Of a stretch of 64,000 nt of DNA, positions 8,395-28,242 are shown one piece after another. The notes under the pieces were generated by a model. It was not told the DNA's origin, searched no databases, and saw only the letters and a program-made list of their open reading frames with translations. The stretch comes from Pontiellaceae bacterium B12227 (GTDB taxonomy: Bacteria > Verrucomicrobiota > Kiritimatiellia > Kiritimatiellales > Pontiellaceae): assembly GCA_029432775.1 (NCBI GenBank), contig JAROAZ010000008.1, forward strand, positions 62,001 to 126,000. Reading direction: 5' to 3'. The stretch's first letter is position 1; each line of letters starts with the position of its first letter. A program made the position numbers and the translations under genes.

Positions 8395-8415
8395 TACAAC
8401 GAAAGGAAATGAACC

Positions 8416-9339: not shown

Positions 9340-9356
9340 TCGGAAGGATGAAAATC

Positions 9357-9539: not shown

Positions 9540-9810
9540 AAAGCTATTCGAGCTGGGAATGGTCGTCATGACTCCCGGCGCCGCTTCACTGCTGGTGGCA
9601 TGCGGAATAGACACCTGCGATATCATTGAACGTCATCAGTCCGGTGACTGGGGAGAACTCTATCCCGATGACTGCAGAGTGAATGATGATGCGGTGCGTT
9701 ACGGTAGCCAGATCCTCTCCGCTTACAAGTTCGAAGAAGGGCAACGGCTCTGGATCATCACTGAGGCGGACCGTTCGGTCACTACGCTGTTGCTACCATC
9801 CGAATACTAA
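9517..9810 (+). CDS. Conserved plasmid-related protein
   Basis: 97 residues from the ATG at 9517 (GAAGGAGA upstream). The pattern GMVVMTPGAAS..., RHQSGDWGEL, ...ILSAYKF and the ending WIITEADRSVTTLLLPSEY belongs to a family found beside ArdC and RadC genes on plasmids and islands. Its biochemical role is unknown. Last gene of the rightward establishment cluster. Confidence 0.8.
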   Translation: MRAEKQSKKLFELGMVVMTPGAASLLVACGIDTCDIIERHQSGDWGELYPDDCRVNDDAVRYGSQILSAYKFEEGQRLWIITEADRSVTTLLLPSEY

Positions 9811-9823
9811 AGAAGAATCATTT

Positions 9824-9845
9824 CCCGGAGGTATTCGCCTCCGGG
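9824..9845. terminator. Strong hairpin between convergent genes
   Basis: CCCGGAGG-TATTCG-CCTCCGGG, 8 perfect G/C-rich pairs, 13 bases after the stop at 9810. No T-tract, so any termination would be weak or bidirectional. Confidence 0.55.
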
Positions 9846-10014: not shown

Positions 10015-13000
10015 TTAAAGATTCTCAATTAAAACCGTATAACACCATCCTTGATGTCTAATGGTAGGGTCTAACAAGTCCCAAAACCTGACGTTGTTCT
10101 GTTGCATATAAGGTCCACAAGTATAACGCATAATATTTGAGATGCGAAAAGTACTTTGTATTGGTGAAATCATTTCTTCACCCCTTGCTGATAAACGAGC
10201 AATACACTTCCCGTCATGGCATAGATTCCTTCCGGAGCGAGTCAGTTGATCACCTCGGCAGACATTGCCTTTAATATACTCTTGGATTAGTTTTTTAACC
10301 TGTGAGTTTTGCCCAGGCCAACCGATATAAACCTCTTTTGGAGATCCGGACAACGCATGATATCCGTCCGTATTTCCCCCTAAATATAGTAACTTCTTGA
10401 ACCAGGATGTCTCTCGAACACCCCACCCTATGCATAAGTGGTCCCTTGCCCTTGTCATAGCAACATAATAGAGCCTGGCCTCCTCAGCCGAATCAACCAA
10501 TTCGGGTTTAACATCTCCATCACTCATAAATGGAAATGATTCTTCCGACGGCATGATTATTACAGAATCATATTCCAATCCCTTCACCTTATGCACTGTC
10601 GACACCGTTATTACGTTCTGCAACGACATCTCCTCGTTTTCCCAACCGACCATTCCGTGATGAGCCTTCAGCCGCTCCAAATCCGAAACCTTGGTTTCTC
10701 GAATGAAGTTTGTTAGATCATCAATGCGCGGTCGTCCGCACTCCTTTCGGATGAGTTCATAAACTTTGTTTAATTGAATGATCGAAGATTCAACATCTGC
10801 ATATGACAGGTTTTTGAAACGCTCTATCAGTTCCTTCCACACGTATGAATCAACAAATGCGAATTGATCCAGAGTAGAACATAAATCTAACAAGCCTCCA
10901 TATGTTCTAAGTTGATACAGAGTCAGATCTTCGCCTCCCAACACATTAATCTTGTCATATTCAACACCGACACTGACTAGACTTTCATAAACGCGTAGAC
11001 ATTCGCGATTGGAGCGGCATAAAACCGCTATAGTTTCATCATTTTCATATGAGCTTCGTGCAAGCTCAATCCCATCATCCCAATTTGAGAAATCCTTTAT
11101 ATTGGCGACATCTGATCTGATAGCTGTGAGTTGCCCGTCTTCTTTCATTCTATCAAACCCGATTGACGCAGAGACTTTGGCAATCATCGAACACGCCCGA
11201 ATAACTATATCAGGAGCTGACCTATAATTTAAACACAGTTGATGTTCTGCTGGAGCAAACCTCTTACTGAAATTGCGGAAGTATGCAACAGCCTCTTCTG
11301 GAGCATCTCTTCGATGCTGCCGAATCCACTGCCGCCTATTCCATGTTAGAATATCTTGATCATCATCACCGATCACCATCGCACCACCGGCACAATGAGA
11401 AACCATGCTTTCTACGACATTGAAGAAATCCTCATTCATGTCCTGAAATTCATCAACTAGAATAGCCCGATATCCCCCAGAAACATCTTTAGAAAACCCT
11501 TCATCATTCGCCATTTTTTGTCCAAATGTATGCACAGCTTTCCCTATTGCATCCTGATCATACTCATCATCCGGGGGTTGATGGCGCAGAGAAAAACTGT
11601 GAAATGTCGAAACATCGAGCCTATTTACATAACTTCCATACCCCAATACTCGGAACAGATCTCTGATCCGTTTTCTAATTTCAAATACAACCGCGCGGTT
11701 AAAAGCCAATACAAGTATCTGCCCAGGGTTGATACCCTGAACATGAATCAAATGCGCACAACGCATCAGCAGCACATGAGTCTTGCCGGACCCGGGCCCA
11801 GCATTTACGAGTAAATTATTTCTATATGGGGCAGTACAAACTGCTTTCTGCTGTTCATTTAATCGATCGATTTCAGCCCCAAAGCGCTCTCTTCGAACAT
11901 GAACAAGGATCTCTTGAAGAATTTCATTTTCCTGAAGGACCTTATCATCAACATCACCAACGACATTCTCTAGAAGTTTTTCAATGTCATCCCCCGTTAA
12001 AGCTTCAAAATAGTCGTCAATGAATTCCCTGCGATTTTCCATGGGCATGACTGAGAGTAAAATCATGCATTGTGCTCTTAATTCTTGTAGGCGATGCTTA
12101 TCAAGCATCTCTGCGTACACATTTTGTATATCATGGGGTTTATCCGGCTGATATTGCTGCCCCTCATTCTGATCAGGCAATGGTTGCGCTGAGTTAAGCG
12201 ATACGATCGTGACCCACTCATCTTCACTACCTTTGAGAGTATAAATCCCAGAGTATTCCAAGAGTTTGAATAGCTGTTTTAACCTAGACAACCGGAGGTC
12301 GTCATCAAATTGGGTGATGAATGAATCAAGGCTGATTTCAATTACATCAAAGAGTCCGTCATCAATTTCATCAATGAACTTAGCCAAATCCCGCATCTCT
12401 TGTGAGTATCTTTCATATTCACGAAGCACAGGAATTGTTGCAGCTCCCACTGCCCAGCAATAGATCGGTGACCCATTAGAATCCAGAGTTTCTTTTATTT
12501 CGATTCCTGAATACCGAGCCAGTCTAAGGGTTGTGTTAATTGCACGATATACTTCGCGCTTAACCTGAATCGAAGCTACTATTGGAACATCTCGGTCACA
12601 TTCCATATCCCCCGATAAATAATAATACTCTGATGTATTACTTCCAATAACCACTCTTCTGAGCTCGATTCTTGGAGGAAACTCTATTTCAACAGGATCT
12701 CTATCGCCATATGCCTTTAGCTCACTAATTGCTTCAATGAATGCTGCGCGCTGTTTTTCAGAGTATCTCACAACGATTTCGCGACAGTTAAGACTATCAT
12801 CCCTGACGGTTAATAATATTCTTCCGATATCATTGATTGTTCCATCCGATTGTTCCGCACCGATTTTCCATTCATCATGAGCAACTGCTTTCACAACTGA
12901 ATGCAACTCCACACCAACGCGACTGCTATACCAATGCAAAAGATCTTTTTCGAATTCCTTGCGAGACAGCCTGTGTAAACCCTCTCCTTTAGCTTTAACA

Positions 13001-16000
13001 ATTACATTGCAGGAGCACTGGACCAATTCCCAATATTGTTCCGAACTTCTGGTGTTGTACCTATTGATTTCAAGTTTCTTCTGATACACTAAATAAGGTG
13101 TTTTATTTAGTTCATGTAGTCCCGCGAATAACTCGTCTAAATCGATACTTCCGACAGCTCCCGTTAACTCAGATATTGAGATACTCATTTCAATAAATTC
13201 ATTTTCGGTTTTTATAACATCAGATGGGCTAGTCCCATTTTCATTGATTGAAGAAGGAGATATTAAAGCCAGTAAGCCTTTCTTCAAACCACGTACAAAA
13301 CGGCCGAATGCCGAACTAGAAGCATCTGACTCCGGTTTATTTCCACATTCCGCGACCACCGATGCACTATCATTCAGGATTGCTAATACTGCGGCCGCGA
13401 TGCGAGAAGCCAGAGTTTTACTTCCAGACAAACCCTGAAGCCCCGCCGGTCTCACTGATAACTTCATGAAAGGAGGATGTCGCCCTTCAACAACTAAAAC
13501 CCCAGCTCTTTCCAACCAGAATAAACAGGATGTTAATTGATTCTCATCATAGGACTTTCCATTCACTCGGATAGTTGCCGGTATCAGGCATACATGTTTA
13601 TCAACCGTTGGGAACTCGACAGATCGCTCAGCACAGTATCCAAGAACCTCCTGTAAGTCAGGAGGGCGTACAGCCTTATCTTGCAACAAGCCAATATTGT
13701 GCTCTAGGTTTCCTCTGTTATACAGCAAGGTTGCATCAACCTGTTCTTTACCGGCTTTTAACCTTTCACCCTTATCACGCCCAATGCGTCCCACCTCCTG
13801 AAGATAGTCTTCAATATATGTTGGAGGGCGGTGATGAATGCATGCATGAATATGCGGAATATCCATTCCCATACCGAAAGCTTTGGTACAAACGAGAACA
13901 TTAGTCTGCCGATCATACAAAGAAGCACAGACCTCCTCTTTCAGGCCTTCCGGCAGACCCGCATGAAATGGTAATGCCTTGAGTTCTGGTACAGACGATT
14001 CAGGTTGGCTGGATAATATATTCAGGAAATCACTTATCATGTGGCAGTCCTTGCGCCTGCTCACAAAGATGATGACTGCACTACTCTTGAGATTCATCTC
14101 TGAAATGATTTTAATAATAGAATTAATTTTCGGATCTTTTGATGGATCCTCTTCATTCTCTTGTACATCTAATGAATTCAAACGAATAAATGGTTGAATC
14201 GGGTGAGGCATTTCACTCGGTAGATCAGAATAAGGACCATATTTTCCAAGACCCACCTCTTTTTCCAAATCCCGTCGATTTCGCTGAGTGACTGTAGCTG
14301 AAGTTAACAGCAGCCGGTGAGGATTGCCTGGAAAAGAACCTTTTTTGAACCATTTGGCGATATACTGGGCAGCATATAGGTAGTCCGGTCGGAATTCGAA
14401 ACCCCATTCGCTGACACAATGTGCTTCATCAAAAACAATAAACTCCAGTCCTCGGTCCATTCTTCGCCGACGCTCGAGAACCTCTGTAAATCGAGAAATT
14501 CGAAACCTTTCGGGAGCAACAAACAATAGTTTTACCCGGCCATCCAATATACCCTGATAAGCATCTTGATTTAACCAGGGGTCTCGACCCCCGCTCAGAA
14601 AATCCACGGACTCTCTAAAATGTCGTTTCCATAACCCTTCCACTTGATCAGCCATTAGCGCTCTCAAAGGGGTAACAACAACAGTCAGACGTCCTGTATA
14701 AGTGGAGCGAAGCAATGCTGGAAGGTGAAATACAATTGATTTCCCTCCCCCTGTAGGTAGCCGAAGCAACAGATCGTCAGTATTCCAAAGCAGTGCATTT
14801 ATCGCTTCTTGCTGAGGTCCTTCTCTGAAATCAGAATACCCCCAGTGTGCTTCAAGAAAGGTGCGATATTCTTCGTAGGTACTCGGAATATCTTTTACAG
14901 CTCTTTTTGGAAAACAAATTTCATCATATATTTCTAAATTTTGCTTATCCAATAGTTCATCGAGAGAATAAAAAGGAAGCGGTTCCCACGGAAGGTCTCG
15001 GCGCATTCCAATGGGCCCATCGCGCAACCTGGAATCTAATATTACTACTGGTAGTTCTAATACACCGCCATCGCTGGTTAGAGTTGCAATCCAACCTGGC
15101 AAGAATGCCGATATGCAATCCCACACATCTTTGCTCGCAACCTTAACTTCGTCAGTTTGATACGGAATAACACCAACATCAGGAACACTGCCCAGCTTTC
15201 CTGCATCATCTCCCGACTGTAGGTTTTCATCATTAGAGCCATCATTAGTAGAAGGAGCCCCAGTGCCAATATCCGAGTGTAAAAGGCAATACCAAGAGTG
15301 CAGAGGGACGTCATCAATTGCTATTCGGACTGGAATATTTCTATGCGATGCCGCCTGAATATATTTTGGTAGATTATCAAGAGAGCATATCTGAACTTTA
15401 TGTCCGTGATCATAAACATACTCTAGCTGCCTGAGAGGCGAATCGAATTGTGTTGCGGTATACGAAAGGCTCGCAAGATGCTTTTGCAGTCGCGAGGCAT
15501 CACCTGTCATACGCATAGCTAAAATCAGGAGTACTCCGTCCTCTTTACATTTTTTAAGAAGGTTCAGAGTACAATGTAGAATATCAGCCAAATATAGATC
15601 ACGATTTTCGGTATCAGGGGAAACAAACAATCGATCAACAGTGAGTTTACTGGCATCTCCATCTGACCACCGAGGCAGGCTAACGCAGGTATTAATCGTT
15701 GAAACCGGATTTCGTTTTATCTCAGATAAATCCAGCCAAGGTGGGGGAGCAGAAAAAATGACCCATCCGCACTTTTCCTCTGCATATCCAATTTCATCCC
15801 GCAGTATCCAGGTATGCGTGTTATTCGCTCCTTTTATTTTAATCAGCCTACGGCCTGTAAGTGCGAGGTCCACGTCAGGAAAGTATTTCAATAATTCCGG
15901 GTCACTAACCCTACGTCCATAGTGCTCATTCCATTCGCGAAATACATCTAAGGGAGAATGAACATTTAACTGATGTTCAGATAATAAGTGATTCGCATCA

Positions 16001-17562
16001 TCCCGTGCTAACCTAAACAAATCATTGCTCAAATAACACAGTGCAGCGGTGTTGCCATGATCAACATGATGATTTGCATGACGCTCTTGATATAAACTTC
16101 TTTGCAAATCATTTTTAAACAACCAGTTTGGTATCATAGACAAACGAACCTGCACGCCAGAGAGACTTGCATCAGACACCACAATTGAAATGATCTTGGC
16201 AAAAAGATCGTCCATATCTACGGCCACTTGAGTGCAGATATCCGGCAGTAGTTCAGGGTCCTGAAGATTCCTTTCAGCAGAGTGGTAAATAACCCGGCAG
16301 TCGACCTTCCATTTAAAAGCCCCACAACCACTTTCAGGGTACAAATTAACTTTATCAGCAACTACTTCATTATTTGGGGGATATGTTCTACCTGAAATAT
16401 CTGATAACAGTTTCCCGTCATGGTGCAGGTTATCCACTAAAGTGTGAATACTCAGGAGCGTATCATTTAAAATAGGTTTAAGTTTTCGATACTGACTTTC
16501 GAAGAGAGCATACGTTTCAGCAGCATCGGCATCGGCCTGATGAGCACTCTGATTTACAATCAAAGCATGACAGTCTTTCCATGGCTCAAGTAGCCAGGAA
16601 ATAATTAGCGTATCCCAAATTCGAATATCCGAGGGGAATTCAACCTCTTGCTTCATCAGAATAGGCCAATCCCATCTGATAAAATTGTGTCCAACTAGAC
16701 AGGGAGATCCGAGGGATTGAATGCTCTTAGTAACGCCATGCTGAAGTTGTTGTTTACTTATCGGCAACCCAGGAGTGCCTTTGACGGCATCTGACCCCTC
16801 AGCATTTTTCCACCCAATTTGGAAAACATCTTCGCCATTGCTTTCGAGATCAATAGCAACTACTTCAGCTTTGATTATATAATCCCGAAGTTGTTCGCGA
16901 ATCAACGGAAGAACATTGGGGCTACACTTATAGTCCGTTAGTAACTTCTTAGATCTGAACACCTTTAAGGGAAGGTCTTGAGGCTGAAAAAAACGGTCGC
17001 AAAAAAAACTATAATCTTTGGATGTAGCTGAATAAAAAGGAGAGATGACGATAGCTTCTAGTAAACGTAGATATTCTCCAAGGTTTTCAGAATTCTTCAG
17101 AGCTTCAAGTAGCTGAATCCCTAAGCGTTTGTCCGGGCTAAGCCGAATCTTAGGTGTAGTTTTAGCTACCTTTTCCCACTCATCGATATACCAGGTAACT
17201 TTAAGGATTCCCTCCCACTCCCCAATGCTCATATTGGCGAGTTCCTCGTTTCTTTGAGCGTCAAATTTAGCTATTTCAATTTTATCTTTTGTATTCAGAA
17301 GTTTCCATCTAACAACTCCTGATTCCCAATCTTGTTTCTTTAGTTTGTAGCGAAAGGCATCACCACCTAGGGCAAACATACAGTATCTGCCTTCAGCATC
17401 CGCAATGTCTTTTGATGGTGCATTTACCAATGCCTTGATATGGGCAAAGAATTCCTTGCCATTTCGGTCTCGAATGAAGCCATAACCACGTTCCGTACAT
17501 TTAACCAACTGTCCGCAGAAAGCATAGTGTAGGAAATGGTCGCTAGTATTCACTGATGACAT
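10015..17562 (-). CDS. Giant CSD-DEDDh exonuclease-RecQ-UvrD fusion protein
   Basis: 2515 residues in one uninterrupted frame. Residues about 10-70 are a cold-shock-like fold (GYGFIRDRNGKEFFAHI). About 233-360 form a DEDDh 3'-5' exonuclease: AIDLES, GHNFIRWD and HQADADAAE. After a long unassigned stretch, about 905-1330 is a RecQ-type SF2 helicase (PTGGGKS, DEAHCVSEWG, GRIGRDKGE). About 1895-2440 is a UvrD-type SF1 helicase (NAGPGSGKT, LVDEFQDMNE, VHKVKGLEYD, YVAMTRARD). Each catalytic motif appears intact. Last gene of the leftward operon, 85 bases after the DUF6998-like gene, and by eye more AT-rich than the methyltransferase. Likely unwinds and degrades foreign or damaged DNA; a defence role is inferred. 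Confidence 0.9.
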   Translation of the reverse strand: MSSVNTSDHFLHYAFCGQLVKCTERGYGFIRDRNGKEFFAHIKALVNAPSKDIADAEGRYCMFALGGDAFRYKLKKQDWESGVVRWKLLNTKDKIEIAKFDAQRNEELANMSIGEWEGILKVTWYIDEWEKVAKTTPKIRLSPDKRLGIQLLEALKNSENLGEYLRLLEAIVISPFYSATSKDYSFFCDRFFQPQDLPLKVFRSKKLLTDYKCSPNVLPLIREQLRDYIIKAEVVAIDLESNGEDVFQIGWKNAEGSDAVKGTPGLPISKQQLQHGVTKSIQSLGSPCLVGHNFIRWDWPILMKQEVEFPSDIRIWDTLIISWLLEPWKDCHALIVNQSAHQADADAAETYALFESQYRKLKPILNDTLLSIHTLVDNLHHDGKLLSDISGRTYPPNNEVVADKVNLYPESGCGAFKWKVDCRVIYHSAERNLQDPELLPDICTQVAVDMDDLFAKIISIVVSDASLSGVQVRLSMIPNWLFKNDLQRSLYQERHANHHVDHGNTAALCYLSNDLFRLARDDANHLLSEHQLNVHSPLDVFREWNEHYGRRVSDPELLKYFPDVDLALTGRRLIKIKGANNTHTWILRDEIGYAEEKCGWVIFSAPPPWLDLSEIKRNPVSTINTCVSLPRWSDGDASKLTVDRLFVSPDTENRDLYLADILHCTLNLLKKCKEDGVLLILAMRMTGDASRLQKHLASLSYTATQFDSPLRQLEYVYDHGHKVQICSLDNLPKYIQAASHRNIPVRIAIDDVPLHSWYCLLHSDIGTGAPSTNDGSNDENLQSGDDAGKLGSVPDVGVIPYQTDEVKVASKDVWDCISAFLPGWIATLTSDGGVLELPVVILDSRLRDGPIGMRRDLPWEPLPFYSLDELLDKQNLEIYDEICFPKRAVKDIPSTYEEYRTFLEAHWGYSDFREGPQQEAINALLWNTDDLLLRLPTGGGKSIVFHLPALLRSTYTGRLTVVVTPLRALMADQVEGLWKRHFRESVDFLSGGRDPWLNQDAYQGILDGRVKLLFVAPERFRISRFTEVLERRRRMDRGLEFIVFDEAHCVSEWGFEFRPDYLYAAQYIAKWFKKGSFPGNPHRLLLTSATVTQRNRRDLEKEVGLGKYGPYSDLPSEMPHPIQPFIRLNSLDVQENEEDPSKDPKINSIIKIISEMNLKSSAVIIFVSRRKDCHMISDFLNILSSQPESSVPELKALPFHAGLPEGLKEEVCASLYDRQTNVLVCTKAFGMGMDIPHIHACIHHRPPTYIEDYLQEVGRIGRDKGERLKAGKEQVDATLLYNRGNLEHNIGLLQDKAVRPPDLQEVLGYCAERSVEFPTVDKHVCLIPATIRVNGKSYDENQLTSCLFWLERAGVLVVEGRHPPFMKLSVRPAGLQGLSGSKTLASRIAAAVLAILNDSASVVAECGNKPESDASSSAFGRFVRGLKKGLLALISPSSINENGTSPSDVIKTENEFIEMSISISELTGAVGSIDLDELFAGLHELNKTPYLVYQKKLEINRYNTRSSEQYWELVQCSCNVIVKAKGEGLHRLSRKEFEKDLLHWYSSRVGVELHSVVKAVAHDEWKIGAEQSDGTINDIGRILLTVRDDSLNCREIVVRYSEKQRAAFIEAISELKAYGDRDPVEIEFPPRIELRRVVIGSNTSEYYYLSGDMECDRDVPIVASIQVKREVYRAINTTLRLARYSGIEIKETLDSNGSPIYCWAVGAATIPVLREYERYSQEMRDLAKFIDEIDDGLFDVIEISLDSFITQFDDDLRLSRLKQLFKLLEYSGIYTLKGSEDEWVTIVSLNSAQPLPDQNEGQQYQPDKPHDIQNVYAEMLDKHRLQELRAQCMILLSVMPMENRREFIDDYFEALTGDDIEKLLENVVGDVDDKVLQENEILQEILVHVRRERFGAEIDRLNEQQKAVCTAPYRNNLLVNAGPGSGKTHVLLMRCAHLIHVQGINPGQILVLAFNRAVVFEIRKRIRDLFRVLGYGSYVNRLDVSTFHSFSLRHQPPDDEYDQDAIGKAVHTFGQKMANDEGFSKDVSGGYRAILVDEFQDMNEDFFNVVESMVSHCAGGAMVIGDDDQDILTWNRRQWIRQHRRDAPEEAVAYFRNFSKRFAPAEHQLCLNYRSAPDIVIRACSMIAKVSASIGFDRMKEDGQLTAIRSDVANIKDFSNWDDGIELARSSYENDETIAVLCRSNRECLRVYESLVSVGVEYDKINVLGGEDLTLYQLRTYGGLLDLCSTLDQFAFVDSYVWKELIERFKNLSYADVESSIIQLNKVYELIRKECGRPRIDDLTNFIRETKVSDLERLKAHHGMVGWENEEMSLQNVITVSTVHKVKGLEYDSVIIMPSEESFPFMSDGDVKPELVDSAEEARLYYVAMTRARDHLCIGWGVRETSWFKKLLYLGGNTDGYHALSGSPKEVYIGWPGQNSQVKKLIQEYIKGNVCRGDQLTRSGRNLCHDGKCIARLSARGEEMISPIQSTFRISNIMRYTCGPYMQQNNVRFWDLLDPTIRHQGWCYTVLIENL

Positions 17563-17647
17563 CCTGAATTAATCGATACGGCCTGCCAAGTTACACCTTG
17601 CATCTGCATTTCCAATGCTTGAAGGAATTGGTCGATCCGATTCATGG

Positions 17648-18100
17648 TTATTTTATGCGCTCCAATTGTTCCCCGGGCGATAGTGAAGCGGCCAGCTTTT
17701 GAACGCGGCTCAATGAAATCTGATACTGGCCATTTTTCGGTCGTTTCCTATCCTTGAATTGCTCCCAGATCAGTTCTCCAGGACCGTTGTAAAATTCATC
17801 GAATGAGCCATCGGGGTTGATTTTGATAATGATGGTGTGCTCCGGGCGGCTCCGAAAAGCAACGCTGTCCCGCTGGGTTGCTTTGATTTCCACTTCTCTG
17901 CCGTCTGGTGATTTAGCATCAAACCCTGCGTTGGAGGCTGACATTAATTCCAAACCGTAGGCATCGGCAACGAGACACTCTCCAATGCTTCCGACCATGT
18001 GTCCATCCGGGGTGAAGTGACGATCGGGAAACATCGTCTCCAGCTTATGAACCGATGCGTAGATATCCTGAACGATAGACTGAAATTCCGAATGGTTCAT
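17648..18100 (-). CDS. DUF6998-like PD-(D/E)XK nuclease-fold protein
   Basis: 150 residues; the ATG overlaps the upstream stop (ATGA) and has GGAGGGTAAGG before it. PDGHMVGSIGECLVADAYG, NAGFDAKSPDG and VEIKAT give the E ... D ... E-x-K arrangement of the restriction-endonuclease-like fold; the SVAFRS and NGPG segments fit the DUF6998 family as I know it. In this operon it may be the effector nuclease or a DNA-end sensor. No activity can be read from sequence alone. Confidence 0.75.
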   Translation of the reverse strand: MNHSEFQSIVQDIYASVHKLETMFPDRHFTPDGHMVGSIGECLVADAYGLELMSASNAGFDAKSPDGREVEIKATQRDSVAFRSRPEHTIIIKINPDGSFDEFYNGPGELIWEQFKDRKRPKNGQYQISLSRVQKLAASLSPGEQLERIK

Positions 18101-18792
18101 ACCTTACCCTCCTCGGCGTCGCGGTCCTGGCGGAGGTAGATGGTGATGTCGGTTTCGGGGATGGTGAAGGTTTTTAGCAGGTCGCGGATTAGGTTGCGCA
18201 GGTGGTTGGCGGAGAGGTTGACCTCGGCGAACAGGCCGGGAACTACTTTAGACGCAACGCGCAGTTTGGCGGGGTCGGAGGAGAAGTAGACGTTGCCGCG
18301 CCGGGTTTTGAAGTCGGGGTTTTCGGGCAGACCAGTGAATCGTTCGTTGTCGCGTGCGTTCAGGATGCGGCAGACCTGCTCGAAGATGCGGCGCCATGTG
18401 TTGACCTCTTTAAAGCCCTGCCCGCAAAGCACGAAGCCGTAGGGGCGTTTGAAGGTAAAGTCTTCTCCGATGCCGTGCGCCTGCTCGCGGTCAAGATCGC
18501 GGATGATGCGGTCATTTTTTTGTTGATCCGATTCCTGGGCCGCCGGCGTGGTCTCCTCTTCCGGCTCGTCGATCCGGACGGCGGTGTATTGCTGCACCAG
18601 TTCCGAGATTTCACCGGACAGCCGATCAAAACCGATCATGCGCTCATTGTAGGCTTGTTTAAACTCCACGCCCTCTTGGAGAGCTTCGGGATCGTTGTGA
18701 TCGATGCTGAGCCAAATGTCATCCGAGAGTGCCAGCATGTTTTCCCGCACCCGCTCCAGATCCTGCAGAATATTACGTATCGTGTTGGTCAT
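18097..18792 (-). CDS. Unknown protein of the defence operon
   Basis: 231 residues, starting within the 3' end of the previous gene with TGGAGAAAAAG upstream. Residues 1-75 look coiled-coil-like. The C-terminal part (FKRPYGFVLCGQGFKEVNTWRRIF ... FTGLPENPDF) resembles a compact alpha/beta domain I cannot name. No catalytic motif is visible. The gene is clearly GC-richer than the SIR2 and giant-helicase genes. Its tight overlap on both sides suggests a fixed partnership with the PLD-like and DUF6998-like proteins. Confidence 0.65.
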   Translation of the reverse strand: MTNTIRNILQDLERVRENMLALSDDIWLSIDHNDPEALQEGVEFKQAYNERMIGFDRLSGEISELVQQYTAVRIDEPEEETTPAAQESDQQKNDRIIRDLDREQAHGIGEDFTFKRPYGFVLCGQGFKEVNTWRRIFEQVCRILNARDNERFTGLPENPDFKTRRGNVYFSSDPAKLRVASKVVPGLFAEVNLSANHLRNLIRDLLKTFTIPETDITIYLRQDRDAEEGKV

Positions 18793-20041: not shown

Positions 20042-20080
20042 GATCAACAGTCCCCCTCAGGACAGCTCATTTTTTCGCCC

Positions 20081-21091
20081 TTACTCATCAGCGCCCTCAC
20101 TATTTTCAAATTTTGACAGTTCGTGAAACCAATCCTGAAGTTCCGGCAAAGATTCGGTTTTGAATATCCCTATGTCTTCAGATGGAATTCCGTAAAAGGA
20201 GGCGTTTCTTTTCCATTCAAATGTTCGGCGCGGCCAAAGGGCTATGGATGATTGAAAGAAATCAGTCTCATGCATCATATGATCGTAGGGAATAAAATCA
20301 GACCAGTTATCTGAAAGGTGAGCGATCGAAGCTGTATCGATCAACTCGACGTGGCACAATCCACGCGATTCTTCATCTCCCCAGGCATCCAGCAGGATTT
20401 TGCGGGCATTATAATCCGTTTTGGGCGCAGAATATCCAAAGATCGTCATATGAAATGATTGCTTAACTCTCTCCTGAACAATGGCCCAGTCGCGTTTGAT
20501 GAATGAATCTTGTGCATAATCTTTATCAGCTTCGGGATATAGAAGCTGGCCCGTAATCAATTTGGTTTTGCAGACAGGGCAAGACATACCCCCTAAGCCG
20601 AGTACATCGTGATCTTTGCAAGTAGAATATGAGACGCACCCATGCAAGAAACGCAAATCAGGAAGGTCGCATCCCTCTCTGTTTCTTTCATAAGCCTGAA
20701 GTAAAAGAGGATCCCAGTTAAATGTCGCGATTACATCTGATTTGCGTAGGCCAAGAACCAGGTAGTCGTAAATCGTCGGATGGTCCGGGAGTTCCATCTC
20801 TTTAAAATATCTCTTTAGCCGGCTCTCTATATTAGCTAGTTCCTCTGAAAATTCAGACTTTGATTTTATCCAGGAATATTGAGATTCAAAATCCGTCGCA
20901 GGAGCATTGGACTTTAAAACAAGATCGCTCCATGCTTCTCCCAAAACAGAGGGCAATTCATTCATGAGCGGAAGATGCCGCCCATTTCTATCTCCATATG
21001 GGAAAGCGGCCTTGCTGGCTCCGGCACCCAAAAACACAACATGAGGGGGCGGATTCGGCACAGGCTTTTCTCTCACGGAATATTCGCTCAA
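20081..21091 (-). CDS. SIR2-domain protein (putative NADase)
   Basis: 336 residues. VVFLGAGASKAAFP is the nucleotide-binding start of the SIR2 fold, ATFNWDP supplies the Asn/Asp motif, RFLHG the catalytic-type His, and TIFGYSAPKTD the late motif. A CPVC pair with two earlier Cys may form the zinc site. SIR2 proteins in defence systems deplete NAD+ during infection; whether this one does is inference. Start: TTG overlapping the methyltransferase TGA, with GGAGGG six bases upstream. Composition is more AT-rich than the flanking methyltransferase. Confidence 0.8.
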   Translation of the reverse strand: MSEYSVREKPVPNPPPHVVFLGAGASKAAFPYGDRNGRHLPLMNELPSVLGEAWSDLVLKSNAPATDFESQYSWIKSKSEFSEELANIESRLKRYFKEMELPDHPTIYDYLVLGLRKSDVIATFNWDPLLLQAYERNREGCDLPDLRFLHGCVSYSTCKDHDVLGLGGMSCPVCKTKLITGQLLYPEADKDYAQDSFIKRDWAIVQERVKQSFHMTIFGYSAPKTDYNARKILLDAWGDEESRGLCHVELIDTASIAHLSDNWSDFIPYDHMMHETDFFQSSIALWPRRTFEWKRNASFYGIPSEDIGIFKTESLPELQDWFHELSKFENSEGADE

Positions 21092-24000
21092 GTCGCGCCC
21101 TCCACGATGGCGATTTCTTCGGGGGTAAGGTCGTAGAGTTTATAGATGAGCTCGTCGATTTCGGCTTCGAGTGTTGAGACATCGGCAGCGGGGTCATCGT
21201 GTTTCAGCACCAGAATTTCTTCCACCCGTTTAACAATCTCATCTTTCTGAGAGGCTGTGGCAGAAGCAATTGATATTTTTTGCATCCGATCGCCCCGAAA
21301 CTGAACACGGCCGCCATTCCAGGGATCGCCCCAGGCGGGAAATTCACTTCGATAAAAATAATCCATCAGCAAAGAGTTGAGTATGCCGAGTATATACTCA
21401 GGCTCATCAGTAACGATGATGAATCCCGTTTTATTGATGCACAACGCTTCCTGATCATAAAACGCATGCAGTTCTTTGGAGGTCTCATTGTAAACAAGTT
21501 TTGGCAAATCAAACTCGGCATTATAAGCACAAGAACGCATCTCCCAGTAATACTGGCCTTGGTCATCTCTGGCGATGAGCCTTTCTGTATGGGGTTTTAG
21601 ATGCTTGTAGATGGCGGGATAAGCCTTCTTGAATGTGGCCTCGGCCTTGGAGTCAGACTGCCCTGACCATGGCCATGTTGCGTTGGCACTACTATAGATA
21701 TTGATCACATATAACTCGTTAAAGTCGGCGTACCAGCGCTTGATGTCCTTTCCACGCAACCACGGTTTAATGAGGTCAGCCGAGTTTTCGTCTTCCGCTA
21801 TAAGGATGTCCCGCGTTTCTCGGTCGATGACGAAGGCTTCATTAAATCCCGTTTTGATTCCATAATAGAATCTTCCATCAACATATTCGCCAAGCGGTGT
21901 GCCTGTTTCACGCAGTTTATCGAGCAGGTGCATTTTTTCGGGGCCGTCCAGCGACCATCCAGTATCGCTGAGATTGGATGAATCTAAATCAAAACCCGTC
22001 GAAGCCATGGTTTCCGGCAAGTTACGAATACCCTCCACTTCTTTCACGGTTGCCGCGCGAATACTCCCGCTTTCTGATGGTTGGTTGCCTGCGAGAATAA
22101 TACAAGGATCAGTTCCTGCTTCGAAAACCGGCAACTCACCAAAATCGATTAGGATCTGAATATCATTTTCCTGATTCAGGTATTTTCGGAGAGCCTTACC
22201 GTAACCTGCCCGGAAAAACTTATTGGAAGTAATGAAGCAGAGATGTCCGGCCTGATTCAGCAACCGGATTCCACGTTCATAGAAAAGGCAATAGATATCG
22301 GCGGTTGCAGTGTAGGTCTGGAATTTCTGCGTTATCCATTTGTCCTTTTGCGCCTTGGAAAACTTTTGAATCTGAATGTAGGGCGGATTGCCAATAACGA
22401 TATCGAACCCCTTAAGATCGAACATCCATTCAGGATCGAAGAAAGAAGAGGAGGCGTTCTGGTCGTAGGGGTCCCACCCGGCAAGCTGGCGGGCGGAGGC
22501 GTTGCTCCAGCCGTTGGAAACGAGTTCGGTTGCAATCTGTTCACGCAACTCTTTATCGCGTTTGCGTTTGTCCCGTTTGGTTTGGGGGGTTTTCGCGCCA
22601 AACAATTCGTGCCTGACTTTTTTGAGTTCCTTTTCCAATGCCTGAACTTTTGGATTCTCAAAGAGCTCTCCTTGATTTGCAGGTTTCTCGACATGGATTA
22701 GGGTGTTGGCGGTAGCAAACTTCGTTTCGAGGTTCGGCAAAGGACGGATGCCAAAGTTGGTCTTCTCTGCATTAACCTTTTGGTCAACGATCAATGAAAT
22801 AAAGAAACGGAGTTTGCTTACCTGGGTGGCGATGGACTGGATATCGATTCCGTAGATACAGTTTTCGATAAGATACAATTTTCGCCCATAACCGAGTTCA
22901 TTGCTGGAGAAGGCCTCTTCAACATCTGTCTTCTGCGCGTCCAGCTCTCTAAGGGTATTTTCACGGACGGTTGAATCGTCAATATTTTCCGCAGCAGCAA
23001 TGGTGGCATCTACCTTTTCGAGCTGCCGGTCGCGCCAGAGCCGGTTTTGGGGATCGAGTTTTCCGAGCACAAATTCGAGCTTGTGCAGAATGCCCATCGG
23101 GAAGGCCCCGGAGCCACAGGCGGGGTCGAGAATCTTGCAGTTGTCGATGGCCGCAATAAGCGCATCCTTTTCGGCATCAGAAAAAGCGTGCTCCTTTTCC
23201 GTATAGGCAAAGAGGATTTCGAGGCCTTCTTTGGCGTCGTCTTCGGACATGAGTTCCGCTTCACACAACGCTTTTTGCAAATAGGCTTTGAGGGATTCGT
23301 CGACCATGTAGTCCACGATGGTACGCGGAGTGTAGAAGGAGCCGGTTTGTTTGCGTGCCGTGGTTTTTGTTTCAGGATTATATGAGGCCAACAGGTTTTC
23401 AAATACCTTGCCAAGCAGCTCGGGGTCGAGAGCGATTTCCTCTTCAATCGGGGTGTTTTCCACAATGGTAAACTTATAGCTTTCCAGAATCGGAATCAGG
23501 CCGCGCACGGTCTCCTTCTTCCGCTTTTTATCCCCGTATACATCACTTAGATCAATAGTATCCTTTTCTGCAAAGAATAGAAAATCCGGCACTTTCAACA
23601 CATTGTCTTCGCGGTCGGAAAAACCGTCTTCGTAGAGAATGACATCGCCCCCCTGCGGGCCTTTCTTTTCCGGATGCACCTTATCCAGACACTCGAACAG
23701 CCCGCCGTTCATAAACGGCACGGTCGATTCCAGCAACTCTACAAAAGAGCCAGAATCTTGAAAGCAACGCTCATAGCGCATGAGGGTCGTGACGTTACGG
23801 TGCTGCCGACCCACTTTACGGAACTCGCGTTTGCCACTGGTCTGGTTTAATGTTGCAAAAAAGAGATTCTGAAGAACTGCTTTGTAGAACCGCGTGTCTT
23901 TTGATTGCGCATCAAAATCCTTCAGCACATCCTGTTTCAACTTTTTCGGATTAAAGAGCAAATCCGGAACCAATCCCTTTTCCTTAATGAACCAGACAAA

Positions 24001-24846
24001 CAACAGACGGGTCAGCAGTCGTATCAGATTCTTAGCATCGTGTTCTTTGACCTTTTCCGGATCTTTGAACAGGTCACCTTTATCGGCTTCGGCACTGTCG
24101 TGCGGAAAGTGAACGTGCTGGGTGGCCCAGAAGTACCAGTTGGAGAGTTCCCGGTAGAACTTTTTATTGAGCGCGTCCACATCGAGAGTTTTCTGCCACG
24201 CATCATGCAGCTGGGCAAAATTTTGAGGTGCATGCTCGTTTACGATATGCTCCAGTGATAGATCGTAAAGAATGTCAATATGGGCGCGGTGGGGATTGGC
24301 GGCGCGGATGTCTTTGATCAGCGTGACCTTCTGGATCACATCCTTATCGGTATCGCGTTTGTTCAGTCGACGGTTGGCAATGGCCAGGGTGAGCGTCAGC
24401 TCGCCATCGAGCCGGAACAGGATCATGGCCGGCATGTCAAACAAGCGATTCACTTCGCGGGTAATTTCCGAGAGCTGGGTCCGGGTGTAGTGCCCCTTTT
24501 TCAGGTCGAGCGCGAAGAACAGGTAGGATTGGTAGTTCTTGCCGTCATACGCCGTGCCGGAATCAAAATCAAAACTGCCCTGGGCAGCGGCCTGCTGCAC
24601 CTCGGCATCGGTAAGCTGGAAGAGAAAGTCCATCGTTTCCCAGCAATCGAAGAGCGCCTTTTCGCGGTTGAGCTTGCGGTCCCGCGTATCGAATTGTTCG
24701 ATAAAGGCGTCCGGAGTGTTTTCCATCTCCATGACGCGATCACTCTTGTAGCCCAGCGAATTAAACAGCGCTGTTGCGTTTTCGCACAGTGATCCGCTAC
24801 GAAACCCTTTCAGGCTTTGGACAATTCCATTTTTCGAGTTACTCAT
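21088..24846 (-). CDS. Eco57I-type adenine-specific DNA methyltransferase
   Basis: 1252 residues. SAM-binding motif I is LDPACGSGAFPMGIL near residue 573, and the amino-MTase motif IV is IGNPPYIQ near 818, so N6-adenine is the expected target. The C-terminal about 350 residues (GYGKALRKYL ... WLRGKDIKRWYADFNELYVI) look like a TaqI/Eco57I target-recognition domain. The first about 450 residues may contain a nuclease domain, but I cannot place a catalytic motif, so it may be a type IIG enzyme or the modification arm of a helicase-driven system. The start lies four bases after the helicase gene. Confidence 0.85.
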   Translation of the reverse strand: MSNSKNGIVQSLKGFRSGSLCENATALFNSLGYKSDRVMEMENTPDAFIEQFDTRDRKLNREKALFDCWETMDFLFQLTDAEVQQAAAQGSFDFDSGTAYDGKNYQSYLFFALDLKKGHYTRTQLSEITREVNRLFDMPAMILFRLDGELTLTLAIANRRLNKRDTDKDVIQKVTLIKDIRAANPHRAHIDILYDLSLEHIVNEHAPQNFAQLHDAWQKTLDVDALNKKFYRELSNWYFWATQHVHFPHDSAEADKGDLFKDPEKVKEHDAKNLIRLLTRLLFVWFIKEKGLVPDLLFNPKKLKQDVLKDFDAQSKDTRFYKAVLQNLFFATLNQTSGKREFRKVGRQHRNVTTLMRYERCFQDSGSFVELLESTVPFMNGGLFECLDKVHPEKKGPQGGDVILYEDGFSDREDNVLKVPDFLFFAEKDTIDLSDVYGDKKRKKETVRGLIPILESYKFTIVENTPIEEEIALDPELLGKVFENLLASYNPETKTTARKQTGSFYTPRTIVDYMVDESLKAYLQKALCEAELMSEDDAKEGLEILFAYTEKEHAFSDAEKDALIAAIDNCKILDPACGSGAFPMGILHKLEFVLGKLDPQNRLWRDRQLEKVDATIAAAENIDDSTVRENTLRELDAQKTDVEEAFSSNELGYGRKLYLIENCIYGIDIQSIATQVSKLRFFISLIVDQKVNAEKTNFGIRPLPNLETKFATANTLIHVEKPANQGELFENPKVQALEKELKKVRHELFGAKTPQTKRDKRKRDKELREQIATELVSNGWSNASARQLAGWDPYDQNASSSFFDPEWMFDLKGFDIVIGNPPYIQIQKFSKAQKDKWITQKFQTYTATADIYCLFYERGIRLLNQAGHLCFITSNKFFRAGYGKALRKYLNQENDIQILIDFGELPVFEAGTDPCIILAGNQPSESGSIRAATVKEVEGIRNLPETMASTGFDLDSSNLSDTGWSLDGPEKMHLLDKLRETGTPLGEYVDGRFYYGIKTGFNEAFVIDRETRDILIAEDENSADLIKPWLRGKDIKRWYADFNELYVINIYSSANATWPWSGQSDSKAEATFKKAYPAIYKHLKPHTERLIARDDQGQYYWEMRSCAYNAEFDLPKLVYNETSKELHAFYDQEALCINKTGFIIVTDEPEYILGILNSLLMDYFYRSEFPAWGDPWNGGRVQFRGDRMQKISIASATASQKDEIVKRVEEILVLKHDDPAADVSTLEAEIDELIYKLYDLTPEEIAIVEGAT

Positions 24847-24850
24847 AAAT

Positions 24851-27800
24851 TCAACCTTTAATAACCAGCCATGTAATCAGTTCAAAATCGTCGTGATCGT
24901 TGACTTGTTCTTTTTTGTCGGGGATGACAAACCCGCGCCCGGACTGAAGACCGGCAGCAATCCGCTTTTTAAATGTTTTGGAAATGGATTTAACGGTTTT
25001 TCCCAGGAGTTCGTTATAGACGGTCATATCTTTGCCGTCCTGTGTTTCACGATCAAACAGGTCGCAGAGCTCCTTGTAGGGCTCTTCCTTGCCTCGGCAC
25101 AGGTTCTGGAAGATGGAGAGGATCTGTTTGACATGGGTAAAGCCGAACCGCACTTCACCATCGTTACGGATATAAACCAGATAGTACGGACTGAGCGGAT
25201 TGACATTCGCCTGTTTCTGGTCGGTAGGAGGATTTTTATGCCGCAGGCAGAAGATGACTCCCGGCTTTACGATTTCATGCCAATTCTTATCAAACAGGTC
25301 TGCGTCCTTCATCTTGGCCAATGTCGGAACAATTCCATACAACCCCATCGGGGCATCTTCCAGAGTGCGCCGGTTGGCTTCCAGATAGTTGAGCAGCTCG
25401 ATGCGGAAGTCATCCAGTGTAAATTCACTGAGCGAGACGTTGTCATCCATCTCTTCCAGGTCAAGGACTTCATCCTTCAGACGCAGCAGTTGCTTTTCCC
25501 GGTAGGACAGCTCTTCGGTCAGCAGATCCTTGATCTGTTCGGTGTTGAGCAGATCATCTTCGCCGGTGGCCGCCAGATCCACCAAAGCCATGCGGGCTTC
25601 CACCCGTTCTTTCAAATTGATGTATTTATTCAGGTCGGGCGTCGGCCAGAAGTTGACGAGCTGGATTTGGGTGTTGATGCTGCCTAAACGGTCGATACGG
25701 CCAAACCGCTGAATGATACGCACCGGATTCCAGTGAATGTCATAGTTGACCAGAAAGTCGCAGTCCTGGAGGTTCTGTCCCTCGGATATGCAATCGGTGG
25801 CAATCAGGATGTCGATCTCGCCTTCCTGAGGCATGCTGCGTTGCATCTTGTCCCGATTTTTTGATCGGGGTGAAAAGTTGGTCAGGATAGCATCAAAATG
25901 GGTCTGAAACTTGAATCCCTTTGGTTTAAACGTGGCACGGTTTTCGCCGGTTCCTGCGACCAAGGCAATATTAAGCCCATGATCTTCGAGAGCCCAATCT
26001 TTCAGGTTTTCATAGAGGTAATGCGCTGTATCGGCAAAGGCGGTAAATACCACCACCTTTTTATTTCCATCATTCAACGGTTTTTTCAGTTTCGCATTAA
26101 TGATCTCTTTAAGATCCTTCAGCTTAGCATCGCGGTCGGGTGTAACGGAGACGGCAGCACTGTAGATGCCGCATAGTTGTTTCCGATCAGCCTCGAGATC
26201 GATCAGCCAATCTTTGATGTTCAGATGCTCCAGCCTGTATTGGAGTTTTTTACCGACCATCAATCTTTCTTCCAGCTCGGAACGGTCATCGTCATCCATG
26301 TCTAGCAACATGTCCAACTGAGAAAAATCAGTTGTATACTGATCTCGGTTTTGGTCGAAATGCTTAATCTTTTCGATGAGGTCTTCGATCTTTTTTATCG
26401 TGCGATCTATCGATAATTCGAAGGCTTCGATGGAGCTTTCTAATCGTTTCAGATAGTTCACCTTCATCATCCCGATCAGGGACTTCTCACGGGCGGATTG
26501 GCTCTCGAAAAGGGTCTTTTGCTCTCCGGGCTTGATGTATTTATCCTTGTGTTCATCGGGCAGGTATTTTGATGGATTGAAGATCGACAATTGGTACTGC
26601 GAAATATCCTCATTCAAGTCGTCATAGGTCGGGAATCGCTTTTTCAGGTCGATCTCGGGATACATTGCAATCGGGGGCAGCCGTTCTGGAAACTTACCTA
26701 TCTCCTCGATGTTGTAATAGTTTTCGATGTGCCTACGCGACCGGGCAATGGTCAACGCATCCATCAATTTGAAGAACGCCGAGTCCAGTGACTCCAAAAG
26801 CGACCCCACCTTCCTGCCTGGATTTGTTTTGTGATCTGCCCACTTGGAAAACTTCGCCTGTGAGTTTTTCATCACCTGGGCGATACTGTAGACATCCAGC
26901 GGCTCATGGTAGGCATGATCGTCGCCCTGCGTAATCAGCAGCATCTGATTGCGCAGATCCTTCAAGTTGGTGTTTAGCGGGGTTGCGGATAGCAGCAGCA
27001 CCTTGGTATCAACGCCTTTTTGAAGTATGTCCTCCATCAGGCGTTGGTATCGGCTTCGACGAATTATTTCTCCACTTTCATCCTTTTTGCCCGGCGTGTT
27101 ATTTCTGAAATTGTGCGATTCGTCGATGACGATCAGGCCGTAGTTGCCCCAGTTGTGGGTTGCCAAATTGACATCTCCAGACATGCCCCCATCACGACTC
27201 AGATCGGTATGCGAAAGAACCGTATAGCTAAATTGATCCTCTGAAAGAATATTGCGTTCATCATTTTCCCGATAGACGGTCCAGTTTTCTCTTAACTTTT
27301 TCGGACATAAAACCAGCACCCGGCAATTAATCTTTTCAAAATATTTGATAACAGCCAGAGCCTCGAAGGTTTTCCCCAGCCCCACGCTGTCAGCGATAAT
27401 GCAGCCGTTGAATCGCAGAATTTTATTGATGGCCCCTTTTACGCCGTCCTTCTGAAATTCATAGAGCATGTCCCAGACTTTGGTTTCATAAAAGCCGGTC
27501 TTGGCATCCAGCATGCCGCCCTTATCCGCCTCGGAAAGGAATCCTTCGAAAATATGGAACAGTGTCTTAAAGTAGATAAATTCAGGCGGATGATTTTCGT
27601 ATAGCTGTTCTAGGTAGGACAGCACCTCGGCCTTAACATCCTCGACTATTTCCTCATCCGCCCAAATCTCGTCAAACCAGTTGAGTAGGTCCGTCCGATC
27701 GCGGTTGTCGTTTACTTCAAGATTGAGTTCGATGTTGTTTCTTGATCCATTACTCAGCCCCAGGCCGCTCACGGTAAAGTTTGAACTGCCTAGCAGGGCC

Positions 27801-28204
27801 TCCTGCACGCCTCCGTTTTCCATGTGGTACATTTTGCCATGCAGGAACCCGGGGCGTTTAACCGAACGGACATCGACTTTATCCTTGATCCACTGGGCAC
27901 ATTCTTTGGCGATCAGCTTCTGTTCCAGGCGATTCTTGAGTTGTAGCTGAGAGTCTTCGATATCGAAGGCCTTCTTGTCCGTCTTTTCCGGATCCAATGA
28001 TTGGATAAACTTGGGTTCGCCAAACAGAAAGCGGAGATGATCAACCGAATCCAATTCTTCTTTCAGGGCCTGGTGTGCATAAATCGTGAAATAGGCCGAA
28101 ACGAAAGAAAGTTTTGACCCGGACTGGATCTTATCTTTTAAAAAATCCCCGACACCTCCTCGGTTATGATTGTCCCGTATTCCCGATAAATTTACTCCAG
28201 ACAT
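24851..28204 (-). CDS. PLD-SNF2 helicase of a restriction-like system
   Basis: 1117 residues from the ATG at 28204 (GGGGTGG upstream); the ATG four codons earlier has no ribosome site. The N-terminal about 180 residues are a PLD nuclease-like domain: FLHGKMYHME and LLGSSNFT, an H-x-K motif with Glu where Asp is usual. SNF2/HepA-type helicase follows: DSVGLGKT near residue 273, IDESHNF, LLLSATPLN, ATDCISEGQNLQ and QRFGRIDRLGS. PLD-helicase and Eco57I methylase pairs occur in several antiphage islands and probably translocate on and cut unmodified DNA. First gene of the operon. Confidence 0.85.
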   Translation of the reverse strand: MSGVNLSGIRDNHNRGGVGDFLKDKIQSGSKLSFVSAYFTIYAHQALKEELDSVDHLRFLFGEPKFIQSLDPEKTDKKAFDIEDSQLQLKNRLEQKLIAKECAQWIKDKVDVRSVKRPGFLHGKMYHMENGGVQEALLGSSNFTVSGLGLSNGSRNNIELNLEVNDNRDRTDLLNWFDEIWADEEIVEDVKAEVLSYLEQLYENHPPEFIYFKTLFHIFEGFLSEADKGGMLDAKTGFYETKVWDMLYEFQKDGVKGAINKILRFNGCIIADSVGLGKTFEALAVIKYFEKINCRVLVLCPKKLRENWTVYRENDERNILSEDQFSYTVLSHTDLSRDGGMSGDVNLATHNWGNYGLIVIDESHNFRNNTPGKKDESGEIIRRSRYQRLMEDILQKGVDTKVLLLSATPLNTNLKDLRNQMLLITQGDDHAYHEPLDVYSIAQVMKNSQAKFSKWADHKTNPGRKVGSLLESLDSAFFKLMDALTIARSRRHIENYYNIEEIGKFPERLPPIAMYPEIDLKKRFPTYDDLNEDISQYQLSIFNPSKYLPDEHKDKYIKPGEQKTLFESQSAREKSLIGMMKVNYLKRLESSIEAFELSIDRTIKKIEDLIEKIKHFDQNRDQYTTDFSQLDMLLDMDDDDRSELEERLMVGKKLQYRLEHLNIKDWLIDLEADRKQLCGIYSAAVSVTPDRDAKLKDLKEIINAKLKKPLNDGNKKVVVFTAFADTAHYLYENLKDWALEDHGLNIALVAGTGENRATFKPKGFKFQTHFDAILTNFSPRSKNRDKMQRSMPQEGEIDILIATDCISEGQNLQDCDFLVNYDIHWNPVRIIQRFGRIDRLGSINTQIQLVNFWPTPDLNKYINLKERVEARMALVDLAATGEDDLLNTEQIKDLLTEELSYREKQLLRLKDEVLDLEEMDDNVSLSEFTLDDFRIELLNYLEANRRTLEDAPMGLYGIVPTLAKMKDADLFDKNWHEIVKPGVIFCLRHKNPPTDQKQANVNPLSPYYLVYIRNDGEVRFGFTHVKQILSIFQNLCRGKEEPYKELCDLFDRETQDGKDMTVYNELLGKTVKSISKTFKKRIAAGLQSGRGFVIPDKKEQVNDHDDFELITWLVIKG

Positions 28205-28242
28205 ATTCCACCCCATTCAACCACAGATACAAAATTGGAAAA

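Follow-up and report, generated by a model that had tools for sequence, protein, structure and literature searches.

Seven genes on one strand

The window analysed here is a stretch of 64,000 nucleotides (64 kb) of Pontiellaceae bacterium B12227 (contig JAROAZ010000008.1), and it carries on its minus strand a run of seven open reading frames (ORFs), called P1 to P7 below, that spans 10015-28216 (Table 1). An earlier interpretation made from the letters alone, the sequence-only reading, had placed a seven-gene putative defence operon here, all on one strand, and the ORF list agrees with it. It had also described overlaps or short gaps along the whole run. This holds for P1 to P6, where the spacing is tight, from -20 to +33 bp (P1/P2 +4, P2/P3 -4, P3/P4 +33, P4/P5 -20, P5/P6 -4), and the giant P7 begins 85 bp on. 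The surroundings of the P6/P7 junction show no promoter-like site, and the two terminator-like sites there are both on the opposite strand. As for composition, the SIR2 gene and the giant had been singled out as different from the rest. The guanine-plus-cytosine (GC) content is indeed low in P7 (0.428) and P3 (0.448) compared with 0.471-0.492 in P1, P2, P4 and P6, but P5 deviates too, as an outlier on the high side (0.573). The GC content at third codon positions (GC3) is low in P7, at 0.370.

Table 1. Coordinates of the seven genes and of the divergent gene beside P1 (lengths in amino acids, aa)
Gene	Description	Length (aa)	Position	Strand	Basis
P1	HKD (PLD) nuclease-SNF2 helicase fusion	1121	24851..28216	-	Pfam PLDc_2, SNF2-rel_dom, Helicase_C
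P2	DUF4391 + Eco57I-type N6-adenine methyltransferase + TaqI-like target recognition domain	1252	21088..24846	-	Pfam
P3	SIR2-like putative NADase	336	20081..21091	-	Motifs and colinear SIR2_2 match
P4	PLD-like protein, apparently catalytically degenerate	424	18773..20047	-	AlphaFold model and Foldseek
P5	Coiled-coil protein with possibly SeqA-like C-terminal domain	231	18097..18792	-	Foldseek
P6	DUF6998 protein with PD-(D/E)XK-like motif (by eye)	150	17648..18100	-	Pfam DUF6998 3e-53
P7	Giant CSD(?)-DEDDh-RecQ-UvrD protein	2515	10015..17562	-	Pfam DEAD 5e-30, UvrD-helicase 1e-29
HTH_17 gene	Excisionase-type, divergent from P1		28346..28687	+	Pfam HTH_17 2e-8

The P1-P2 pair and the slot behind it

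The seven proteins were scanned with Pfam, PADLOC and NCBIfam, and for P1, P2 and P7 the best 25 PADLOC matches were considered. In P1 the nuclease domain (PLDc_2, 83-185) precedes the SNF2 helicase (from 255), and the protein matches the PADLOC model C3a139 'HKD+Snf2' at 1.2e-134. Over 50 sequences, the window included, the helicase motifs GLGKT (Walker A) and DESH are conserved, and H126, K128 and the G-S-S-N motif are retained in 96%; the aspartate, third letter of HKD, is absent from its usual position. The Pfam matches of P2 are Eco57I (1.8e-39), TaqI_C (5e-10) and DUF4391 (0.008). Its DPACGSGAFP and NPPY motifs are conserved across 83 sequences (window included), and over the same set the N-terminus has no conserved PD-(D/E)XK motif. 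Compared by hhalign with stand-alone DUF4391 proteins, this N-terminus gives a probability of 96 and an E-value of 4.8e-9 (4 versus 7 sequences). Could P2 by itself do both the cutting and the methylation, as a type IIG enzyme, with P1 as an accessory? The sequence-only reading had named type IIG-like restriction as one likeness, and the best PADLOC model of P2 is REase_MTase_IIG (7e-105). But the best-matching stretch, 736-1166, covers the methyltransferase and recognition parts, and DUF4391, with no conserved D/ExK, takes up the N-terminus. As P2 shows no conserved nuclease motif over the 83 sequences, the type IIG label, which asks for nuclease and methyltransferase in one chain, fits poorly, and this explanation is extremely improbable.

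DUF4391 also occurs as a separate gene. On three plasmids an annotated DUF4391 gene separates a P1 relative from a site-specific DNA methyltransferase. Among 28 viral loci with a P1 relative, at least 16 have a gene of 203-262 aa directly after it on the same strand, and only some of these genes were tested as DUF4391. Because separate DUF4391 genes adjoin P1 relatives paired with site-specific (type III-like) methyltransferases and the domain is fused in P2, the combination of HKD-SNF2 and DUF4391 is common to two kinds of methyltransferase. The C3a139 systems, type III-like Mod/Res pairs with DUF4391, share the P1 family and DUF4391 with the window. They have a separate site-specific (Mod-like) methyltransferase and usually a Res-like helicase, whereas here there is one Eco57I-type chain to which DUF4391 is fused. 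Type ISP enzymes such as LlaGI unite a translocase, a gamma-type adenine methyltransferase and a recognition domain as one restriction-modification (R-M) enzyme; here there are two chains, with HKD instead of the Mrr-type nuclease.

Is the pair conserved across genomes? P2 was searched against 84,980 species genomes and had 457 relatives there; the best 79 of these loci were used, and 7 loci on viral contigs were added to make 86. P1 was scored by tblastn as a match on the same strand, upstream and within 6 kb of P2. It was found there in 59 of the 73 testable loci, the other 13 having too little DNA. (An ORF-based count, 57 of 74 testable among 89 loci, was superseded because an antisense ORF had masked P1 in L027.) A conserved translocase-nuclease together with a methyltransferase that has a recognition domain is a feature of ATP-dependent R-M systems (type I/III/ISP-like), and it is seen in these 59 loci and in the conserved motifs. 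The proposal of the sequence-only reading that a helicase-plus-methyltransferase core was extended by modules is borne out. For the other genes the result is different. A P6 relative occurs in one of the 86 loci (L043, after P2) and a P4 relative in two, the viral contigs L018 and L019 with identical core sequence; the seven-gene set occurs in none of them, and was seen only in the window among the searches made. The counts are lower bounds, since the loci reach no further than 10 kb beyond the match and contig edges cut many of them short. The seven genes are not one conserved system.

Genes of the SLFN_AlbA_2 type adjoin P1 or P2 in L189 (2576-4249, by Pfam), L025 (4019-5545, by eye) and L013 (6688-8232, called from its annotation as an RNA-binding domain protein). 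The genome of B12227 itself has a second, distant HKD-SNF2/methyltransferase pair (G000:C11, L175 8405-15843; P1 E 7.8e-44, P2 E 5e-175). Its slot holds yet another gene, which by eye looks nucleotidyltransferase-like; L191 has a similar one behind P2.

Might the locus instead be a decayed or variant form of DISARM, BREX, a BREX-related system or ARMADA? P1 matches DrmD and P2 matches DrmMI/PglX models, but the scores are far under the cut-offs (155.6 against 610 bits for DrmD, NF038317; 72.1 against 500 bits for PglX, NF033452), and the P1-P2 pair is widespread. The sequence-only reading had reported hallmark genes of DISARM and BREX as missing, and we agree: no drmB, pglZ, brxC or DUF499 was found among the listed matches of the seven proteins. 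For the DISARM hallmarks drmA and drmB (with drmC), which were looked for in the seven proteins and not in the rest of the genome, P3-P6 gave no match, and the DrmA match of P1 is a generic one in the helicase part (5.7e-21), weaker than its DrmD match. BREX-related Type-2 systems (PMC12839542) have an HKD nuclease N-terminal to a Swi2/Snf2 helicase, with an N6-methyltransferase and auxiliary effectors adjoining the core. P1 has the same order of HKD and SNF2, but the methyltransferase here is not of the DUF1156 type, and the Pfam scan of the seven proteins gave no DUF499 ATPase, DUF3780 or DUF1156 methyltransferase. In DISARM class 1 and ARMADA (PMC12458937) an SNF2 helicase adjoins a PglX/DrmMI-like methyltransferase, with an extra UvrD-type helicase in ARMADA II; no YprA-like helicase was recognised among the seven proteins here. 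Membership in DISARM, BREX or BREX-related Type-2 was rejected on the features tested in the seven proteins, and a degraded or variant form of these or of ARMADA is highly improbable. In the literature consulted on defence systems no description of an Eco57I-type P1-P2 pair was found (a 2020 review of ABC ATPases may cover related operons), nor was a role of DUF6998, or of P4 or P5, in defence found described.

What follows P2 in other genomes? A slot gene was defined as a gene of at least 90 aa on the same strand as P2 with a gap of at most 120 bp. It is present in 51 of the 74 loci with enough DNA (89 loci examined), and 45 of these 51 proteins were scanned, leaving out L018 (duplicate of L019), L068 (contig end), and L029, L056, L063 and L069, which looked spurious. 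SMC_N was matched by 19 of the 45; other matches are SIR2_2 (L027), TIR with TPR (L101), GmrSD (L041, L073), AbiJ_NTD4 (L085 and one more) and FRG (L067). The slot type therefore varies among ABC ATPase, SIR2, TIR, GmrSD and AbiJ. One slot protein (L044) matches GajA at 1.3e-225 and has a UvrD-type neighbour in the locus, from which we infer that this locus probably carries Gabija. The 86 loci contain 48 slot genes. Of these, 27 begin at the P2 stop or up to 60 bp before it, and 16 of the 27 overlap by 4 or 1 bp. On the P2 tree, L024 shows 74% identity across 706 columns, yet its slot is occupied by an ABC ATPase and that of the window by SIR2. Over 34 rows labelled by hand from scans and reading (L038, L045 and L062 by reading only), the slot type changes 12 times, compared with 11-13 times in 30 shuffles. 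This count dropped the long-branch rows L014, L107 and L023, doubtful labels and rows without a recognisable slot gene, and it supersedes a looser count of 15. Almost no inheritance of slot type is visible along the P2 tree.

Recurrence of P3 to P7 in other contexts

P3 shows the motifs GAGAS, FNWD and LHG (by eye), which are kept in relatives of 72% and 38.5% identity, and a SIR2_2 protein, that of L027, matches it colinearly (E 0.015). It has no Pfam match at E 0.1 and no match in a PDB sequence search. The accessory genes were surveyed in 288 genomes of the phylum, drawn evenly and including the own genome, and P3 was found in two others. In G206, of a second genus, a 72% identical copy stands directly after the C-terminal half of P2; another contig of the same genome (L189) ends inside the N-terminal half of P2, with P1 before P2. 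These data do not show that the window and G206 exchanged P3 as a module, as P1 there is also 67% identical. In G147 the copy lies in two pieces inside an hsdM-hsdS-hsdR (type I R-M) operon. The suggestion of the sequence-only reading that SIR2 serves as an NAD-depleting back-up stands as the best reading of P3, with its identity resting on the motifs and the SIR2_2 match.

P4 was modelled with AlphaFold from five rows, with a predicted local distance difference test score (pLDDT) of 76.4 and a predicted template modelling score (pTM) of 0.44. The best Foldseek matches are mostly PLD enzymes in the N-terminal part (E 0.006-0.1, none under 0.001); TrmBL2, whose sensor domain we take to be PLD-like, is also among them. 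No histidine stands in the invariant columns of seven sequences, for which reason P4 does not qualify as an active PLD. The model suggests an inactive PLD with a PLD-like fold in the N-terminal part, and so supports what had been read from the sequence. P4 had no match in a PDB sequence search, and a four-row alignment gave no conserved stretch. Besides the window, its relatives occur in three methyltransferase contexts: a BREX-1 system (36%, between pglX and pglZ), the P1-P2 pair of the viral contigs L018/L019, and a DUF1156 system (L104; 42%, after an HKD-SNF2-like helicase and beside the DUF1156 methyltransferase), the last being a link to BREX-related Type-2. In Caballeronia a relative (24%) lies after transposase genes and before an McrC fragment. 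One other genome of the survey, G144, has P4, near a contig edge. BLASTP of P4 and P5 against both hypothetical genes at the Nostoc locus L014 gave no similarity.

The model of P5 (five rows) has a pLDDT of 77.7 and a pTM of 0.63. Against 350,542 chains in Foldseek, SeqA gave the only matches with a probability over 0.9 (0.97 and 0.91). N192 is invariant in five sequences, and a profile alignment places it at an asparagine in the DNA-contact loop of SeqA, which presumably touches the DNA. P5 differs from SeqA of E. coli by its coiled-coil N-terminus, its location in an R-M operon and the weak E-values of the matches, and no Pfam SeqA match was found in the own genome. Thus P5 is possibly SeqA-like, and we take the modelled likeness as a lead, not a proof.

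In the survey P5 was found in ten genomes at E 0.001, the own included, and five of the others have substantial matches. In 4 of the 4 testable genomes (G015, G083, G263, G158) it shares the contig with an HKD-SNF2/methyltransferase pair. It comes 41 bp after P2 in G263 and about 1.1 kb after it in G083, with a second HKD-SNF2 next in both; in G158 the order is HKD-SNF2, Eco57I-type methyltransferase, ABC ATPase and then P5 2.1 kb on; and in G015, P1, P2 and a P5 that holds a stop (about 4 kb after P2) lie in one 20-kb stretch with mobile genes. The contig of G192 ends just upstream of P5. Of the remaining four matches three are weak, and the fourth is a fragment of 37 residues in G098 that lies about 5 kb away from a P2 relative. 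Searches of viral contigs and plasmids with P5 gave no result. A second SNF2-type helicase stands directly after P5 in L170 (12848-16453) and L171 (4330-7788), so that some systems carry two SNF2-type motors.

The Pfam match confirms the DUF6998 identity which the sequence-only reading had given to P6, and PADLOC mREase_II is matched at 1.8e-7. One other genome of the survey has P6, G187 (L188), where it lies between a DpdE/DrmD-type SNF2 helicase and a DrmMI-type methyltransferase with a DEAD helicase upstream, in a DISARM/ARMADA-like operon. The plasmid relatives of P6 that were looked at are not beside a methyltransferase.

P7 had been described as a CSD-DEDDh-RecQ-UvrD giant. Its RecQ-type DEAD helicase half and its UvrD half are found by Pfam, but the cold-shock match is weak (E 0.028, below the Pfam cut-off) and the DEDDh motifs were read by eye only. 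At E 1e-60 it occurs in one other genome of the survey, G015, where it is nearly full-length and stand-alone, with P2 and P5 on a different contig. The plasmid relatives looked at are not beside a methyltransferase, save in Hymenobacter, where an island holds one; two relatives are split genes. A Gabija or PsyrTA partner (GajA or PsyrA) gave no PADLOC match in P3-P6, and the P7 relatives looked at stand alone. P7 is probably an independent defence gene, a neighbour of the operon. Do all seven proteins then form one dedicated machine which needs every gene, P7 included? The common strand and the short spacing would agree with it. However, P7 has its own low GC3 and the 85-bp gap, it stands alone in G015, and co-occurrence of the seven, the test which the sequence-only reading had proposed for its single system, was seen in 0 of the 86 loci, many of them ended by contig edges. 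Such a machine is very unlikely.

Beside P1 the divergent HTH_17 gene is a possible regulator, and small helix-turn-helix genes also stand upstream of P1 relatives in L012 (annotated), L017 and L191 (by eye). To the left of the operon, RadC-like, PD-(D/E)XK exonuclease-like and ArdC-like ORFs (5659-9830, read from translations) are mobile-element genes. To the right, a protein of degenerate short repeats (29810-30796, plus strand, by eye) adjoins a tRNA-Phe gene and is apparently unrelated to the operon; the tRNA-Phe was considered as an integration site, but its 3' end does not occur a second time in the window at up to 3 mismatches. A prophage-like region follows (31500-52600), with ORFs resembling major capsid, protease, portal, terminase and DNA polymerase A proteins, as read from translations. 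In a low-GC patch of it, on the strand opposite to the neighbours, lies a stand-alone HKD-type protein (41786-42952, plus strand; PLDc_2 E 4.3e-6), possibly phage-borne cargo.

A proposed restriction core with an exchangeable effector

How might these proteins work together? The reading that we favour, with moderate confidence, is that P1 and P2 form an ATP-dependent R-M core with an exchangeable slot effector, here the SIR2 protein P3, that P4-P6 are accessories, and that P7 is a neighbour. The data show the gene order, the families, the conservation of the P1-P2 pair, the turnover of the slot and the recurrence of P3-P6, whereas each catalytic step, the docking and the trigger are proposed. 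P2 would recognise its site via the TaqI-like domain and methylate adenine. P1, docked through the DUF4391 domain of P2, would translocate on unmarked DNA and cut it with the HKD nuclease. P3 in the slot would be a second-line SIR2 NADase that depletes NAD+ once a phage blocks or overwhelms the core. P4, modelled as an inactive PLD, and P5, possibly SeqA-like, are probably scaffold or reader subunits linking the DNA methylation state to P1 or P3, P6 may be an auxiliary PD-(D/E)XK-type nuclease, and P7 would be an adjoining independent helicase-nuclease gene. A back-up effector of this kind would resemble the DSR-type SIR2 NADases, where SIR2 is the NAD+-depleting effector, and PARIS beside BREX, which adjoins an R-M-like core (PMC12839542); here the protein is a small SIR2-like one. 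CxC systems contain HKD-SF2 restriction components (PMC10853773). The parallel with these components, with BREX auxiliary effectors (PMC12839542) and with ARMADA (PMC12458937) is a functional one.

Several points weigh against this reading. P1 is not upstream of P2 in 14 of the 73 testable loci, two of which carry it elsewhere in the locus, so P2 may work without P1. By the rule used, a slot gene is missing from 23 of the 74 loci that have sufficient DNA. Relatives of P3, P5 and P7 occur in 0 of the 86 P2 loci. Plasmid relatives of P3 do not stand beside a methyltransferase, and its coupling to one is therefore not obligatory. The pTM of the P4 model is 0.44. The E-values of P5 with SeqA are 0.23 and 0.49, none under 0.001, and the sequence support is weak: hhalign puts SeqA fourth of 501 entries, 500 being decoys, with 89 columns and a probability of 3.7, and P5 has no PDB sequence match. 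Finally, defence genes cluster anyway, and so neighbours need not interact.

The last point leads to plain juxtaposition in a defence island, where a two-gene R-M system, a stand-alone SIR2, small accessories and a giant helicase would lie side by side without functional coupling. Relatives of P3, P6 and P7 away from methyltransferases in several records, and the seven-gene set found nowhere else, are consistent with it. But the junctions P2/P3, P4/P5 and P5/P6 overlap, P3 directly follows P2 in a second genus at 72% identity, and P5 shares a contig with HKD-SNF2/methyltransferase pairs in 4 of 4 testable genomes. We regard juxtaposition as rather unlikely. The sequence-only reading had itself named homologues scattered without a conserved neighbourhood as an argument against its single system. 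This is the case for P7; P3 and P6 are found both alone and beside methyltransferases, and P4 and P5 recur beside methyltransferases. P3-P6 recur beside adenine methyltransferases in other contexts.

Then what could connect such accessories to a core of P1 and P2? Methyltransferases of the Eco57I/MmeI type mark one strand of an asymmetric site. The self sites would thus be permanently half-methylated and readable by a SeqA-type domain, SeqA being a protein that binds half-methylated adenine sites. P5 might read these sites and, with P4 as a non-catalytic PLD adaptor, report the self mark to the core and silence the SIR2 protein, and loss of the mark or inhibition of P2 by a phage would free P3. 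We consider this extension doubtful. If it is true, the restriction core would carry a suicide switch gated by methylation and built from an accessory pool shared with type I R-M, BREX and ARMADA-like systems.

For the family, the favoured reading would make P1-P2 a widespread two-gene restriction core, with 457 P2 relatives in one scan, and a swappable effector slot. It also ties the uncharacterised DUF4391 to a common HKD-SNF2 partner across two methyltransferase kinds, and points out accessory proteins, P3-P6, that turn up again in operons of the R-M, BREX and ARMADA-like kinds. If P5 truly reads half-methylated DNA, it would offer a testable answer to the question of how suicidal effectors could be gated by self marks in restriction systems.

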